A DNA stretch of 17,003 nt from an uncultured beta proteobacterium (GTDB lineage: Bacteria > Pseudomonadota > Gammaproteobacteria > Burkholderiales > Burkholderiaceae_C): positions 1 through 17,003 of the forward strand of contig CAJASG010000444.1 of NCBI GenBank assembly GCA_903944555.1. Direction: 5' to 3'. A program made the translations under genes and the position numbers. The notes below the pieces were generated by a model. That model searched no databases. It was not told the origin of the DNA and saw only the letters and a program-made list of their open reading frames with translations. Positions 9,861 to 14,890 of this stretch are shown here, one piece after another; position 1 is the stretch's first letter; the number at the start of each line of letters is the position of its first letter.

Positions 9861-10655
9861 ATGGATTTGGGACTACACGGTAAATGGGCTTTGGTCTGCG
9901 GCGCCAGCAAGGGGCTGGGTTTGGGTTGCGCCACTGCGTTGGTGCAAGAAGGTGTGAACGTGCTGATCGTGGCGCGTGGGGCTGAAGTGCTGGAGCAAGC
10001 TGCTACTAATTTAATAGCTTCTCACGCATATTCCACGGGGGCTACAGTGCTATTTTGTGCCCAAGATATCACCACGCAGGTGGGCCGCGATGCGGTGTTT
10101 GCCCTGCGGAGCGACTTTGACATTGTGGTCACCAACGCGGGTGGCCCGCCCACCGGCAACTTCCGTGACTGGGACCGCGATACCTGGATCAAGGCGGTGG
10201 ACGCCAACATGCTGACCCCCATTGAGCTGATCAAAGCCACGGTGGACGGCATGGCCGCCCGCGGATTTGGGCGCATCGTCAACATCACCTCCAGCGCGGT
10301 GAAGTCGCCGATCGACATTTTGGGCTTGTCCAATGGCGCGCGCAGCGGCCTGACCGGCTTTGTGGCCGGTGTGGCCCGCTCCAGCCTGGCGGCGCAGGGT
10401 GTCACCATCAACAACTTGCTGCCTGGCGCGTTCGATACCGACCGCCTGCGCGGCACGCTGCAAGGGGCCGCGCAAAAGAGTGGGCAGTCTCTGGAGACCG
10501 TGACCGACAACCGCCGCAAGGGTATACCGGCCCAACGCTTCGGCACGCCTGCAGAGTTTGGTGCAGTGTGCGCGTTTTTGTGCAGCCAACAAGCCGCCTA
10601 CATCACCGGGCAAAACGTGCTGGTGGACGGCGGGGCTTTTCCCGGAACCTTTTAG
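9861..10655 (+). CDS. SDR-family oxidoreductase with atypical active site
   Basis: A 264-residue short-chain dehydrogenase/reductase. It has the N-terminal nucleotide-binding glycine motif GASKGLGLG (14-22), NAGG (92-95), catalytic-type NITSS (141-145) and the C-terminal ITGQNVLVDGG typical of FabG-like enzymes. The usual catalytic YxxxK is replaced: thirteen residues after S144 comes S157-N-G-A-R161, so Tyr and Lys are both missing. Some SDR subgroups share this Sx3R-type change and their activity is unclear. The substrate cannot be predicted. AAAGGAA 8 bases before the ATG gives a good ribosome-binding site, and the 20-bp gap to the MerR-type regulator indicates an operon. Codons 48-66 (ATNLIASHAYSTGATVLF) are made of a 55-bp dispersed repeat and form an unusual loop after the third strand of the Rossmann fold. 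Confidence 0.88.
   Translation: MDLGLHGKWALVCGASKGLGLGCATALVQEGVNVLIVARGAEVLEQAATNLIASHAYSTGATVLFCAQDITTQVGRDAVFALRSDFDIVVTNAGGPPTGNFRDWDRDTWIKAVDANMLTPIELIKATVDGMAARGFGRIVNITSSAVKSPIDILGLSNGARSGLTGFVAGVARSSLAAQGVTINNLLPGAFDTDRLRGTLQGAAQKSGQSLETVTDNRRKGIPAQRFGTPAEFGAVCAFLCSQQAAYITGQNVLVDGGAFPGTF
10002..10057 (+). repeat. Dispersed 55-bp repeat, copy A (inside the SDR gene)
   Basis: This AT-richer segment inside the SDR gene shares a gapless pattern with two other places in the window: an AGCT block, five bases, CGCAT, four bases, then an identical CACGGGGGCTA (10034-10044). Its left half forms an imperfect palindrome (GCTAcTAA-T-TTAaTAGC). It is read through in the same orientation as the gene without breaking the frame. 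The window edge of the unit on each side is approximate. Confidence 0.8.
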
Positions 10656-10676
10656 AGGAGGGTGCTCCAGCGGCCA

Positions 10677-11579
10677 TCAGCGCCGTGATGACAGCACGAT
10701 GCCCGACACAATCAGCACAAAGGCGACGGCATGGAATGCCTGTGGCGTTTCGCCCAGAAACGCCGATGACAGCAAGGCGGTAAACAGCGGCGTGAGGTTG
10801 ATGAAAAACCCCGCCACCGCCGGCCCGGCCCGCGCCACGCCTGCACCCCAGGAGCCATAGGCAATCACCGCTGGCCCCACCGCAATAAAGGCCAGCGCGC
10901 CGATCAGCGGCCAACTCCAGTCGACATGGGCGTTGGTCAGCGCCCACTCGCCACTGGTAAAGAGCGCCGACCAGATCAGCCCGAACACCACTTGCCCGAG
11001 CAAGAACCCTGCCCAATCGGTGCGCAAGGAAGCCGACTCGGGCGTGGGGTGGGCCAGCATCCAACTGTAATAGGCCCAGGCCATGGAGGCTATCAGCACA
11101 TACAGGTCACCCGCCACTAGGCGCATGTCCAGCAGCACCTCCCACTGCCCGCGCGACAGCACCAGCAACACTCCGCCGATGGATAACAGCGCGCCCATCA
11201 GTTGGCGTCGGGAAACGGGCACCTTGAAAAAAACCTTGCCAATCAGCAACATCCACACCGGCGTGCTGGCGCCCACCAACGTCACGTTGATGGGGGTGGA
11301 GGTGTTGAGCGCCAGGTACAGCATGGCGTTGTAGCCGCCAATGCTGAACAGGCTTAAAAAGGCAAAGCGCCGCCATTGCTGCCACAAGGGGCTCCCGGGT
11401 TTGAGCACACTGCCCGCCAGTGGCAGCAGCAGCACAAAGGCAATCGTCCATCTCAGCAGGTTGAGCGTCATCGGCGACACCATGGGAGCCACCAGGCGGC
11501 CCACCACGGCATTGCCAGACCACAGCAGCGGTGGAATGATGAGCAGCACAATGGCGGTAGGGGTCAGGCGTTGGGTCAT
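10677..11579 (-). CDS. EamA/DMT-superfamily transporter
   Basis: A 300-residue integral membrane protein with about ten hydrophobic segments arranged as two EamA repeats. The first repeat begins IVLLIIPPLLWSGNAVVGRL. It contains PxxLxxLRW-like (SPMTLNLLRW) and ALNTSTPINVTLVGASTPVW motifs. The second begins GDLYVLIASMAWAYYSWML and ends FTALLSSAFLGETPQAFHAV. Members of this drug/metabolite transporter group export amino acids or other small metabolites; no substrate can be named. The start at 11579 (MTQRLTPTAIV) matches the family. The frame stays open far upstream, antisense to the quinone reductase gene, but that extension is hydrophilic, atypical and rejected. It converges with the SDR gene (21 bp between stops) and diverges from the quinone oxidoreductase gene. 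Confidence 0.88.
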   Translation of the reverse strand: MTQRLTPTAIVLLIIPPLLWSGNAVVGRLVAPMVSPMTLNLLRWTIAFVLLLPLAGSVLKPGSPLWQQWRRFAFLSLFSIGGYNAMLYLALNTSTPINVTLVGASTPVWMLLIGKVFFKVPVSRRQLMGALLSIGGVLLVLSRGQWEVLLDMRLVAGDLYVLIASMAWAYYSWMLAHPTPESASLRTDWAGFLLGQVVFGLIWSALFTSGEWALTNAHVDWSWPLIGALAFIAVGPAVIAYGSWGAGVARAGPAVAGFFINLTPLFTALLSSAFLGETPQAFHAVAFVLIVSGIVLSSRR

Positions 11580-11705
11580 CACTGGAAATGTACTCGGCCC
11601 GCAAAGCCCTTGTGCACGCCGTTGGGTGATTCGTGGCACCATGGCGACCGAATAACATCGCCTGTTGCCTGCATACTGGCACGGCTCAAACTTCTGGAAA
11701 CCACT

Positions 11706-12701
11706 ATGACGCAAACCCAATCCCGCGCAATCCGAATTGACCAGCACGGTGGCCCTGAACAACTCAAGCTGGCGCAGGTGTCCGTGGGTGAGCCCGGCCC
11801 GGGCGAAATTCGCATCCGCCACCATGCGGTGGGGCTGAACTTTATTGACATCTACCAGCGCAGCGGCCTGTACCCCATGACACTGCCAGTGCAGTTGGGT
11901 ATGGAGGCGGCAGGCGTGGTGGAGGCCGTGGGTGAGGGCGTGACCCATTTGCAGGTGGGCGACCGCGCCGCCTATGCCAGCCAACCCCCGGGTGCCTATT
12001 GCGAACTGCGGGTGATGCCCGCCAAATGTGTGTGCAAGCTGCCCGACAGCATTTCCTTTGACACCGGCGCGGCCATGATGCTTAAAGGCCTGACCGCGCA
12101 GTACCTGCTCAAGAAAACCCTGCCCCAGGGCGGCCTGCAGCCCGGCGACTTTGTGCTGTTCCATGCCGCCGCCGGTGGCGTGGGCCTGATTGCCTGCCAG
12201 TGGGCCAAGGCCATGGGGCTGCAACTCATCGGTACGGCGGGGTCGGATGCGAAGTGCGCGCTGGCGCTGGAGCATGGCGCTGCCTTTGCGATCAACTACT
12301 CGACGGAAGATTTCTTGGCGCGGGTGAAAGACATTACCGGAGGCAAAGGCGTGAAGGTGGTGTACGACTCGGTGGGCAAGGACACCTGGGATAAGTCACT
12401 GGACTGCCTGGCGCCGTTTGGATTGATGGCCAGTTTTGGCAATGCCTCAGGCCCGGTGGCCCCCATGGCACCGGGTATTTTGGGCCCCAAGGGCTCGCTG
12501 TATTTGACGCGGCAAACCCTGTTCACCCACATCGCGACCCGCGAAAGTACGCAGGCCATGGCCGATGATCTGTTTGCTATTGTGGGCAGCGGCCAGGTCA
12601 AGATCCGCATTGACCAGCGCTATCCGCTGGAGCAGGTGCAACAAGCCCACCGCGACATGGAAGCCCGCAAAACCACCGGTTGCTCGATTTTGACGTTGTA
12701 G
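11706..12701 (+). CDS. qor: NAD(P)H:quinone oxidoreductase, zinc-independent MDR family
   Basis: A 331-residue medium-chain dehydrogenase/reductase resembling E. coli Qor. The start MTQTQSRAIRIDQHGGPEQL is typical, followed by GEPGPGEIRIRHHAVGLNFI and the GxxAxxGxV region (GMEAAGVVEAVGEGV). The NADPH-binding motif is AAAGGVGLIACQWAKAMG (about 158-175). The zinc-ligand cysteines of alcohol dehydrogenases are absent, as expected for this group. Length equals the family norm. It probably reduces quinones with NADPH in the cytoplasm, in redox housekeeping or detoxification. It is transcribed divergently from the EamA transporter (126 bp apart) and converges with the tctE-like gene across a repeat-filled gap. 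The ribosome-binding site is weak (GGAAA). Confidence 0.9.
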   Translation: MTQTQSRAIRIDQHGGPEQLKLAQVSVGEPGPGEIRIRHHAVGLNFIDIYQRSGLYPMTLPVQLGMEAAGVVEAVGEGVTHLQVGDRAAYASQPPGAYCELRVMPAKCVCKLPDSISFDTGAAMMLKGLTAQYLLKKTLPQGGLQPGDFVLFHAAAGGVGLIACQWAKAMGLQLIGTAGSDAKCALALEHGAAFAINYSTEDFLARVKDITGGKGVKVVYDSVGKDTWDKSLDCLAPFGLMASFGNASGPVAPMAPGILGPKGSLYLTRQTLFTHIATRESTQAMADDLFAIVGSGQVKIRIDQRYPLEQVQQAHRDMEARKTTGCSILTL

Positions 12702-12715
12702 TTCAATTTATACGT

Positions 12716-12770
12716 CATTTAGGGCTCTAGCCCCCGTGCAGTATGCGCAAGCAGCTCCTGAATTTATAGC
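12716..12770 (-). repeat. Dispersed 55-bp repeat, copy C (convergent gap and stop codon of the sensor kinase gene)
   Basis: On the minus strand this segment follows the same spacing pattern as copies A and B, with the identical CACGGGGGCTA at 12738-12728. It fills most of the 62-bp gap between the convergent quinone oxidoreductase and sensor kinase genes. Its first bases (GCTATAA) contain the TAA stop of the kinase, so the insertion may have set the present 3' end of that gene. A short GGGC/GCCC stem at 12722-12733 could add some terminator function, but there is no T-run. Confidence 0.75.
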
Positions 12771-14200
12771 GTTTTGGGTTGCGCTGGTTCGCGGTCCATT
12801 GGGCTCAGTGGCAGGCGCGCAGTAGCAGTCAGGCCGGTGATGTAGTTCATCTGGCCCCGGTTGTCCAAGTGGATGCTTCCGCCCAGGGCCTGCACAATTT
12901 CGTGGCAAATCGATAGGCCCAAGCCAGACCCGGAGCGTGATTCACCTGCTGAAAATGGCTGGAACAGCCGCTGCCGCAACTCCGCGGAAATGCCGGGGCC
13001 GCTGTCGCTGATTTCCAGCACGGCTTGGCGCGCATCACAGGTCAGTCGCACCACCAGCGCGCCGTTTGCCGGGGTGTAGCGAATCGCGTTGTGCAGTAGA
13101 TTGCGTGAGAGCTCGCGCAGCATCCAGTCATGGGTGCGGATGGGCGCTGCGACGGTCGAAATCTCAAAATCCAGGTTCTTGGCCGCAATCAAGGGGGACA
13201 CGTCAAGGGCCACCTCGCGCAGCACCTGGGCCCAGTCCAACGCGTGGCTGGCGGGTTGCTGGGTCAGTTGCGCCACCTTGGCGAGGGACAGCATCTGGTT
13301 GGCCAGCACCGTGGCGCGCTCCACCGTGTCCGCGATTTCCAGCAGGCCCTGCGTGGGTTCCACGTCGCCCCGCTGTGCTGACTGCACCTGCACTTTCAGC
13401 ACCGCCAGGGGCGTGCGCAACTGGTGGGCGGCGTCGCGCACAAAGCGCTTTTGATGGCTCAGCAGGTGCTGCAAGCGGGACATCTGGTGGTTGGTGGCTT
13501 CAATCAATGGCACCAGTTCACGCGGCGCGCCGGGCGCCTGCAGGGGGGTGAGGTCATCGTCTGAGCGGGCTTGCAGTTGTGCACTGAGTTTGCGCACCGG
13601 CCCGGTGGCGCGCTGCACCACCACAATCACCATCAGGACAATGACGGACACCAATACCGCTTGCCGCACCAGAGTGTCGATCAGGATCTGGCGCGCCAGA
13701 GCACGGCGCAGCTCTCGGGTCTCGGCCACCTGCACCATGGCCATGGCGCGCGCGTGATCGGTGGCAACGGGTTGCAGCAACACCGCCACGCGCACGGGGT
13801 CGCCTTGGTAGGTGTCGTCATAAAAGTCCACGAGAGCAGAGTAGGGCCCCTGGTCCGGCAGGCGACCATGCCAAGCGGGCAGGGCCTCAAACCCGTCAAT
13901 CAGTTCGCCTTGCATGGTGGAGATGCGGTACACCATACGGCTGCGGTTGTCGGCCTCAAACGCCTCCAGCGCGGAGTAGGGCACGTTGGCGCGCAGTTGC
14001 ACGGCTTCGCCCGTGCCCTGGGCCGTGATGTGTTCGCCGATGGACTTGGCCGACGCCAGCAAGGTCCGGTCGTAGGCCGTATTGACCACCGCCAGAGCCT
14101 GGTGGTACAGGCTGAAGGTGTCCACCAGAATGAACAACACGATGGGTAGCAAGATTCCCAGAAATAAATAGCGACGCAGTGACAGGGTGCGGGTGGGCAT
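12764..14200 (-). CDS. tctE: TctE-like sensor histidine kinase
   Basis: A 478-residue membrane sensor kinase. A transmembrane segment at about 11-33, a periplasmic domain of about 145 residues and a second transmembrane segment at about 179-197 match the two-component sensor N-terminal arrangement of TctE/QseC kinases. The cytoplasmic part has an H-box with the phospho-accepting H259 (RDAAHQLRTPLAVL), N-box NLLHNAIRYTP (N371), G1 DSGPGI, FQPF and G2 GSGLGLSI, so it looks active. It starts 9 bases after the stop of the tctD-like regulator, in one operon. The divergent tctCBA genes point to sensing a carboxylate taken up by that transporter. The last codons and stop (QPKTL) lie at the edge of a dispersed repeat, so the original C-terminus may have been altered. 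The symbol is by family and context. Confidence 0.88.
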   Translation of the reverse strand: MPTRTLSLRRYLFLGILLPIVLFILVDTFSLYHQALAVVNTAYDRTLLASAKSIGEHITAQGTGEAVQLRANVPYSALEAFEADNRSRMVYRISTMQGELIDGFEALPAWHGRLPDQGPYSALVDFYDDTYQGDPVRVAVLLQPVATDHARAMAMVQVAETRELRRALARQILIDTLVRQAVLVSVIVLMVIVVVQRATGPVRKLSAQLQARSDDDLTPLQAPGAPRELVPLIEATNHQMSRLQHLLSHQKRFVRDAAHQLRTPLAVLKVQVQSAQRGDVEPTQGLLEIADTVERATVLANQMLSLAKVAQLTQQPASHALDWAQVLREVALDVSPLIAAKNLDFEISTVAAPIRTHDWMLRELSRNLLHNAIRYTPANGALVVRLTCDARQAVLEISDSGPGISAELRQRLFQPFSAGESRSGSGLGLSICHEIVQALGGSIHLDNRGQMNYITGLTATARLPLSPMDREPAQPKTL

Positions 14201-14209
14201 GTTGTGCGT

Positions 14210-14890
14210 TCAATCCGCCGCTTTGAGCAGGTAGCCCAGGCCGCGCAGCGTCATCAGCGTGGTTCCGGTAGGAATCAGTTTTTTGCGCAGCCGGTACACC
14301 ACCACTTCGACCGCTTCATATTGCACATCGGTTTCGCCGGGGAAAACGCATTCAAACAAGCGCTCTTTGGTCACGGCGTGGCCGGGGCGCACCAGCAAGG
14401 CCCGGAGCAGGGCCAGTTCGCGGGGTGTGAGCTCCAAAACCTCCCCCTGGAAGTAGATGGCGCCGCTATCTTTATCATAGCTAATCGCGCATGTTTCACG
14501 GGGGCTAGCGGCCGATTTGTCACTGTATTCGGGCTGCCTACGGTGCAATGCACGTAGCCGCGCCTCCAGCTCGTCGAGGTCAAAGGGCTTGGGCAGGTAA
14601 TCATCGGCCCCGGCGTTCAGCCCCAAAATCCGGTCGCCCACGGTGCCGCGGGCGGTCAGGATCAACACCGGCGTGCGCAAGCCACCTTGGCGTGCCTGGG
14701 TCAAAATCTCCAGGCCATCCAAGCCGGGCAGGCTCAGGTCGAGCAGCACCACATCGGGTGGGTTCAGTCGCCATTGCGCCAGTGCCGCGTGGCCTTCCAT
14801 GCACAGCGTGACCTCCCATCCCAGCCGCGTCAGGGCACGCTGCAGTGTGGTGCGCAGGGCGTCGTCGTCTTCAACCAGCAACAGTTTCAT
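14210..14890 (-). CDS. tctD: TctD-like OmpR-family response regulator
   Basis: A 226-residue response regulator with a receiver domain (MKLLLVEDDDALR; phospho-acceptor D51 in LLDLSLPG; T79; K101 in LPKPF) and a C-terminal winged-helix DNA-binding domain (ELTPRELALL ... VEVVVYRLRKKL ... LRGLGYLL). The ATG at 14890 was chosen because it begins the receiver directly; a further in-frame start at 14932 would add 14 residues atypical of the family. It precedes the kinase gene by 9 bases and is divergent from tctC, so control of tctCBA is the natural inference. The linker, residues 124-142 (DKSAASPRETCAISYDKD), is encoded by a 55-bp dispersed repeat read antisense, an insertion tolerated between the two domains. 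Confidence 0.9.
   Translation of the reverse strand: MKLLLVEDDDALRTTLQRALTRLGWEVTLCMEGHAALAQWRLNPPDVVLLDLSLPGLDGLEILTQARQGGLRTPVLILTARGTVGDRILGLNAGADDYLPKPFDLDELEARLRALHRRQPEYSDKSAASPRETCAISYDKDSGAIYFQGEVLELTPRELALLRALLVRPGHAVTKERLFECVFPGETDVQYEAVEVVVYRLRKKLIPTGTTLMTLRGLGYLLKAAD
14465..14519 (+). repeat. Dispersed 55-bp repeat, copy B (linker of the response regulator)
   Basis: The plus strand shows the same AGCT - 5 nt - CGCAT - 4 nt - CACGGGGGCTA layout as copies A and C (identical block at 14497-14507), plus a GCTAT/ATAGC hairpin (5-bp stem, 7-nt loop) at its left end. It sits antisense within the tctD-like gene without breaking the frame. Confidence 0.8.

Follow-up and report, generated by a model that had tools for sequence, protein, structure and literature searches.

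A dispersed repeat of about 65 bp with copies inside genes and beside a Y1 transposase gene in an uncultured beta proteobacterium and its relatives

The window analyzed here, a stretch of 17,003 nucleotides from an uncultured beta proteobacterium, carries three copies of a repeat of constant length (∼65 bp). We tentatively read this repeat as an old REP-like family that is linked to a transposase and that appears, where it lies in genes, to have taken the place of resident codons. We give this combined reading a little less than an even chance of being right. On this reading, a Y1/HUH transposase would have amplified the family in trans, with single-stranded DNA as its substrate; copies would have come into genes in exchange for resident DNA of approximately equal length, through annealing or a conversion-like event, and some would later have been rewritten in place. 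Genic copies would persist only where the encoded peptide is tolerated. Plain insertion is doubted because the proteins do not show the expected gain in length.

The core of the repeat, AGCTNNTNNCGCATNNTNCACGGGGGCTA, occurs in the window at 10016-10044 (+), 12728-12756 (-) and 14479-14507 (+), each time with 0 mismatches, and its expected number by chance was 0 in 200 dinucleotide shuffles. A sequence-only reading had described three copies of a 55-bp unit at these sites; the copies and their positions stand, and conservation across 33 aligned copies extends the unit to ∼65 bp. In the consensus of these 33 copies, a GCTAT-like left end is followed by an A/T-rich stretch, AGCTGCTTGCGCATATTCCACGGGGGCTAGAGGCC, four A/T positions and an A/T-rich right end. 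Copy 1 (10002..10066, +; profile score 67 bits) lies in the sense frame of a short-chain dehydrogenase (SDR) gene (9861..10655, +; open reading frame with PF13561 and PF00106), at codons ∼48-69. Copy 2 (12706..12770, -; 83 bits) is located between convergent genes for a sensor kinase and a zinc-type oxidoreductase, and the kinase gene (12764..14200, -; PF08521, PF00512 and PF02518) ends inside it, with its stop codon at 12764-12766. Copy 3 (14465..14529, +; 63 bits) is antisense in a response-regulator gene (14210..14890, -, with the frame open to 14932; PF00072 and PF00486), between the receiver and DNA-binding domains. That copies 1 and 3 lie within open frames and that the kinase stop codon falls in copy 2 had been recognized in the sequence-only reading and is confirmed. 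In addition, the opposite strand immediately left of the SDR copy (9954-10018, -) scores as a weak second copy with the same left hairpin, as if the two formed a head-to-head pair; a similar arrangement is present in G323.

The family proved to be real and larger than the three copies first described. The 4.07-Mb source assembly contains 147 matches to the core pattern (82 forward and 65 reverse, at most three mismatches) and 0 matches to the reversed pattern. In the 91 loci of this genome that were read, which surround listed matches and the transposase gene rather than all 147 matches, 109 distinct copies scored above 15 against the profile (maximum in shuffled sequence, -32). The spacing between the two halves of the core was identical in all 87 pairs found. 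Further copies are present in related genomes: a broader pattern was identified in 91 of 299 genomes, representing 50 of 141 genera of the same family, and its reversed control gave at most one match per genome across the 299. By our own tally of these genomes, 66 contained at least five repeats, with a maximum of 256 per genome. A relative, G299, yielded 228 hits in the 1.6 Mb fetched of its 4.1 Mb, and named loci carrying copies include Rhodoferax and Polaromonas. An Rfam search of the window returned 0 matches, and a literature search found no description of the 65-bp family in openly licensed PubMed Central papers; the sequence itself led to a single paper, on an unrelated subject. Closely spaced, partly identical, array-like copies were noticed in two genomes (G010:C4:844-1379 and C12:1601-1637; G226:C1:3768436-3771523). 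Exact core matches occur in four stretches of a viral collection (L513-L516), and similar sequence occurs on plasmids of Comamonadaceae bacterium OS-4 and Rhodoferax antarcticus (AP026971.1; NZ_CP019241.1).

The structure of the unit agrees only in part with what had been supposed. The GCTAT/ATAGC hairpin proposed for the left end can be drawn in many copies, but covariation analysis of 106 copies of the source genome, 228 of G299 and 35 others found no pair of the left hairpin, the inner stem or TAGC/GCTA more than 1.7 sd above shuffles, and the hairpin was rejected as a feature conserved within genomes. In copies of other genera the inner part is better paired (GCGCTT...AAGCGC), and a hairpin may have a role there. 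By inspection, the consensus is without terminal inverted repeats. No empty site indicating a clean insertion of 65 bp was found either in the comparison of G299 sites or among 290 element-lacking pairs (described below), and the suggested MITE is unsupported. The suggested REP-like nature holds for the dispersed family and the Y1-linked copy but not for the GT[AG]G at the foot of a hairpin, which is absent: the two bases preceding AGC (AT in 54, GT in 26, GG in 23, GA in 4 and TG in 1 of 108 copies) are not at the foot of the inner stem.

A Y1/HUH transposase, which the sequence-only reading had proposed to look for, was found, and its gene has repeat-related sequence at the 3' end. It is encoded by the single Y1_Tnp gene of the source genome, is 229 aa long and has the motifs NHFH, YTDLNP and WSS. 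It scored 73 bits against the NCBIfam model of REP-associated tyrosine transposases, below the cut-off of 80, and Pfam gave Y1_Tnp only, a C-terminal HTH-like domain not being found at E up to 0.01, at which a weak domain could escape. The gene downstream of the transposase presumably resembles the glutamate synthase gene gltB. According to a published survey, TnpA-Y1 subclass 2.1, the second largest subclass there, is characterized by NH[YF]H, Y---NP (listed Y motifs, YIELNP and Y[IV]HLNP), an SS motif and a length of ∼238 aa, and no REP-like sequences were found for it by automatic or manual search (PMC6006769). The source transposase, filed by motifs and length and not by tree, appears to resemble this subclass; its YTDLNP differs by two residues from the listed Y motifs, and the C-terminal HTH-like domain that belongs to the subclass was not among its Pfam matches.

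In the source genome, a diverged repeat copy that is without the usual left end begins at the transposase stop codon, on the opposite strand; its divergence and its missing left end count against our preferred reading. We inspected 101 transposase loci (the source locus, 80 named loci and 20 high-copy genomes) for profile scores above 5 within 250 bp of the gene. Such matches were present in 27 loci, including 10 of the 20 high-copy genomes. In 23 loci they were 3' of the gene, without exception on the minus strand and, save in one case, at the stop codon; nine loci had them on the 5' side (eight minus-strand and three plus-strand hits). Away from the transposase flanks, 48 profile hits were found in ∼655 kb. 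A permissive left-end motif was seen 3' of the gene in 50 of the 101 loci, and the position and orientation of the 3' repeat were constant across lineages in which transposase identity to the source enzyme is 58-82%. A TGTCCC(C/T)AATTA-like motif follows in 100 of the 101 loci, beyond the repeat-like stretch and usually 60-80 bp past the end of the protein match (opposite orientation, 2/101); its 5' partner was present in 34, versus four in the opposite orientation.

It may still be that the transposase is an incidental neighbor, beside which one old copy was kept while a different enzyme, now lost or unrecognized, dispersed the family. A related transposase is present in 283 of the 299 genomes, most of which have no repeats detectable by the pattern used, and G270, a one-contig genome (100% complete) with 30 pattern matches, gave no transposase hit; both facts fit such an enzyme and are counted against our preferred reading as well. 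However, the constant place and orientation of the 3' copy across the diverged transposases, the nine loci with 5' copies and the hits at half of the high-copy loci speak against this, and we consider an incidental neighbor unlikely. It should be noted that, among the 66 genomes with at least five repeats, by our tally 56 had a transposase hit at 1e-80 or better and three had none (G040, 74% complete; G163, 70% complete; and G270). Because the gene is nearly universal, co-occurrence was rejected as proof that the repeat needs the transposase, and transposase similarity also follows host relatedness.

When codon usage was tested in both flanks, 29 of the 107 scored copies proved to be intragenic, a fraction that applies to copies found through the core pattern and not to all copies. 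As had been proposed, reading frames stay open in either orientation: 25 of the 29 genic copies fall into just two frames (sense in 13, antisense in 12), each being the sole stop-free frame of its orientation. The recurring peptides are IAACAYSTGARGLFG (sense) and RPLAPVEYAQAAIKIIA (antisense). NCBIfam searches with 20 reading frames identified hosts that include DnaX, LolD, glutamate racemase (MurI), DapF, the CCA enzyme, LpxB, HrpA, a RarA-like ATPase, GlcE, acetoacetate-CoA ligase, SrkA and AmiC. The LolD copy sits within the ATPase domain, and thus the copies are not confined to loops and linkers, where the sequence-only reading had placed them. The CCA gene (L036) and the HrpA gene (L088) each contain two copies, and both CCA sites are occupied in several relatives too.

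If these copies were insertions creating new protein segments, as first suggested, 65 bp would be expected to add 21-22 residues. No such gain was found in the genes compared. LolD aligns without gaps to E. coli LolD over 220 residues and likewise to 30 orthologue rows; just three of these rows exceed a score of 10 with the source-genome profile. The region around the MurI copy has 66 residues in all 27 other species evaluated (13 with element-like DNA, 13 without and one between; two incomplete rows excluded). For the CCA enzyme the corresponding region is 65 residues here, 65-77 in 16 element-bearing relatives and 64-71 in 13 element-free ones. Element-like DNA occurs at the same codons of the SDR gene in 13 of 29 other orthologous loci, and equal-length relatives without an element signal exist; two outgroups, L250 and L251, are four residues shorter at the copy. 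The response-regulator copy, with 63 bits here and -48 to -85 in the others, is absent from all 29 other loci, and in the 13 copy-less loci with alignable flanks the length difference was 0 in six, +3 bp in five, -3 bp in one and +15 bp in one. SDR orthologues thus share the residues with no insertion boundary, an outcome that the sequence-only reading had itself named as refuting its proposal, and as regards length the same is true of the response regulator, LolD and MurI. Among the 290 element-lacking pairs from six gene neighborhoods (the response-regulator copy being counted under two, and 358 pairs with intermediate scores being omitted), 125 differed by 0 and the largest gain listed was 54 bp. 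Another copy (L034), absent from G299, is accompanied by 50 bp less DNA here, not more. Compared with E. coli, the regions around the copies differ by 0 residues in LolD and MurI, -1 in LpxB, -6 in RarA, +10 in CCA, +12 in SrkA and +16 in DapF.

We also scored element-free orthologues in the homologous register, strand and frame. Median percentiles within the respective gene were 100 for LolD (n=25), 99.5 for CCA (13), 97.9 for SDR (16), 96.4 for MurI (14) and 83.3 for the response regulator (29), values which do not separate decayed copies from prior similarity. In E. coli, the homologous registers reached percentiles of 98 in LolD, 97.5 in LpxB, 83-89 in RarA and 73-79 in CCA, and were ordinary in DapF (59), MurI (32-41) and SrkA (17.5); prior similarity of target sites was rejected as a rule, not being general in E. 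coli. The resemblance could stem in part from the decay of former copies, in part from selection for tolerated peptides and in part from entry guided by similarity.

An ordinary REP-like insertion long ago, followed by loss of adjacent native codons under selection for frame and length and by partial loss of signal in element-free relatives through codon drift, would account for the longer DapF, SrkA and CCA regions, which we count against our preferred reading, for the shorter SDR outgroups and for the high scores of element-free LolD, CCA, SDR and MurI, as decayed copies would give. Such a history has against it the gapless LolD alignment with E. coli, the response-regulator copy, which all 29 other loci lack and whose gain hardly altered the length in the 13 that align, and a largest listed gain of 54 bp, and it seems to us rather improbable. 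A third possibility, that a binding site evolved in place by point mutation under selection without any mobile element, fits the constant spacing, the lack of a covarying hairpin and the resemblance of the LolD and LpxB registers in E. coli. However, in a single lineage the response-regulator site would have had to rise from a background score to 63 bits, needing dozens of matching changes, conservation in the copies scarcely exceeds that of the flanks, and the MurI, DapF and SrkA registers of E. coli are ordinary; we regard it as very improbable. Judged from these alignments, LolD and the response regulator are most simply explained by replacement, and insertion followed by partial loss is possible in DapF, SrkA and CCA.

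The family looks old and mostly quiet. Of 19 sites with both flanks alignable to the fetched 1.6 Mb of G299, 17 are occupied there (scores of at least 14), the other two scoring -3 and -61. G299 and G317, which are ∼95% identical, have all seven mapped copies in common, and no recent movement between these near relatives was seen, a point counted against our preferred reading. Identity within copies was 0.65 for nine intergenic or unclassified copies and 0.73 for eight genic ones, a level similar to that in the neighboring 40 bp (0.63 and 0.66, respectively), which also counts against it; strong purifying selection on the copies is unsupported.

Rewriting in place was examined at four genic sites (SDR in 12 species, MurI in 13 and the two CCA sites in 15 and 14), near-duplicate species having been removed beforehand and a few copies being missed by the filters. 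Copies at different sites were more alike within species than between them over 32 core columns (0.653 vs 0.600; permutation p=0.0005) and at codon positions 1 and 2 alone (0.657 vs 0.631; p=0.001), in a permutation that ignores shared ancestry and with a stronger third-position effect that can reflect codon usage. The right end showed a weak within-species excess (p=0.025) and the left 13 columns none (p=0.51). With a pattern leaving position 23 free, G319 has A at this position in 15 of 20 matches. The source genome has G there in 96 of 106 copies. The SDR, MurI and first CCA copies of G319 carry this A, giving Arg for Gly, and its second CCA copy has G. G301 agrees with G319 at position 23, and G309 does so in the MurI and first CCA copies; G328, which groups with G319 in a tree that excludes the element columns, carries G in its SDR and MurI copies. 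Several observations speak against rewriting: Arg is found at the same MurI residue in the element-free L438, A at position 23 occurs singly in G312, G330 and G331, and the genic copies of G299 are without A, the commonest base at this position in that genome (94/228), which we count against our preferred reading too. We regard the evidence for sequence homogenization of copies in unlinked genes as suggestive. A bolder proposal is that single strands from a subclass 2.1-like HUH transposase would anneal at partly similar sites, overwrite an equal length and keep rewriting old copies, so that one change in a dominant copy would edit several unrelated proteins in parallel. We hold it to be doubtful; the Gly-to-Arg change in three G319 genes is a candidate case.

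Several known systems share features with this family. REPs and their RAYT/TnpA-REP transposases (REPtrons) likewise combine short repeats dispersed in the genome with a copy next to a single-copy Y1 transposase gene and with some intragenic copies (PMC3733652, PMC6006769). In contrast, the present repeat is ∼65 bp (REPs, 20-40), has neither GT[AG]G at a hairpin foot nor a hairpin covarying within genomes, keeps its positions between species and accompanies an enzyme resembling subclass 2.1, which the latter survey reports to be without repeats. The 3' flank of the transposase also recalls TIRYT/TIR families, whose flanks share the motif GGGGWSAS (PMC3733652): TGTCCC(C/T)AATTA reads GGGGACA on the other strand and fits this motif, but the dispersed repeat is without it, and a repeat copy lies between gene and motif. 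The same study notes that intragenic REPs and Rickettsia palindromic elements (RPEs) are known, often in genes for DNA synthesis or repair (PMC3733652). These elements share in-frame copies in unrelated, often essential genes with our family; however, RPEs are described there as insertions and belong to another host group, and no plain insertion was found here. PARCELs are repeat DNA encoding a recurring peptide in different proteins, but are tandem arrays (PMC2996958), whereas the present copies are single or paired in ordinary enzymes.

If the link to the transposase and the filing of the enzyme hold, these would be the first repeats for subclass 2.1 and would offer a test of what its widely kept genes do. 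The copies in LolD, glutamate racemase, the CCA enzyme, DapF, LpxB and DnaX matter for aligning those proteins. If replacement is real, repeats would be able to enter essential genes without frameshift or change of length, and one element could alter several proteins together.
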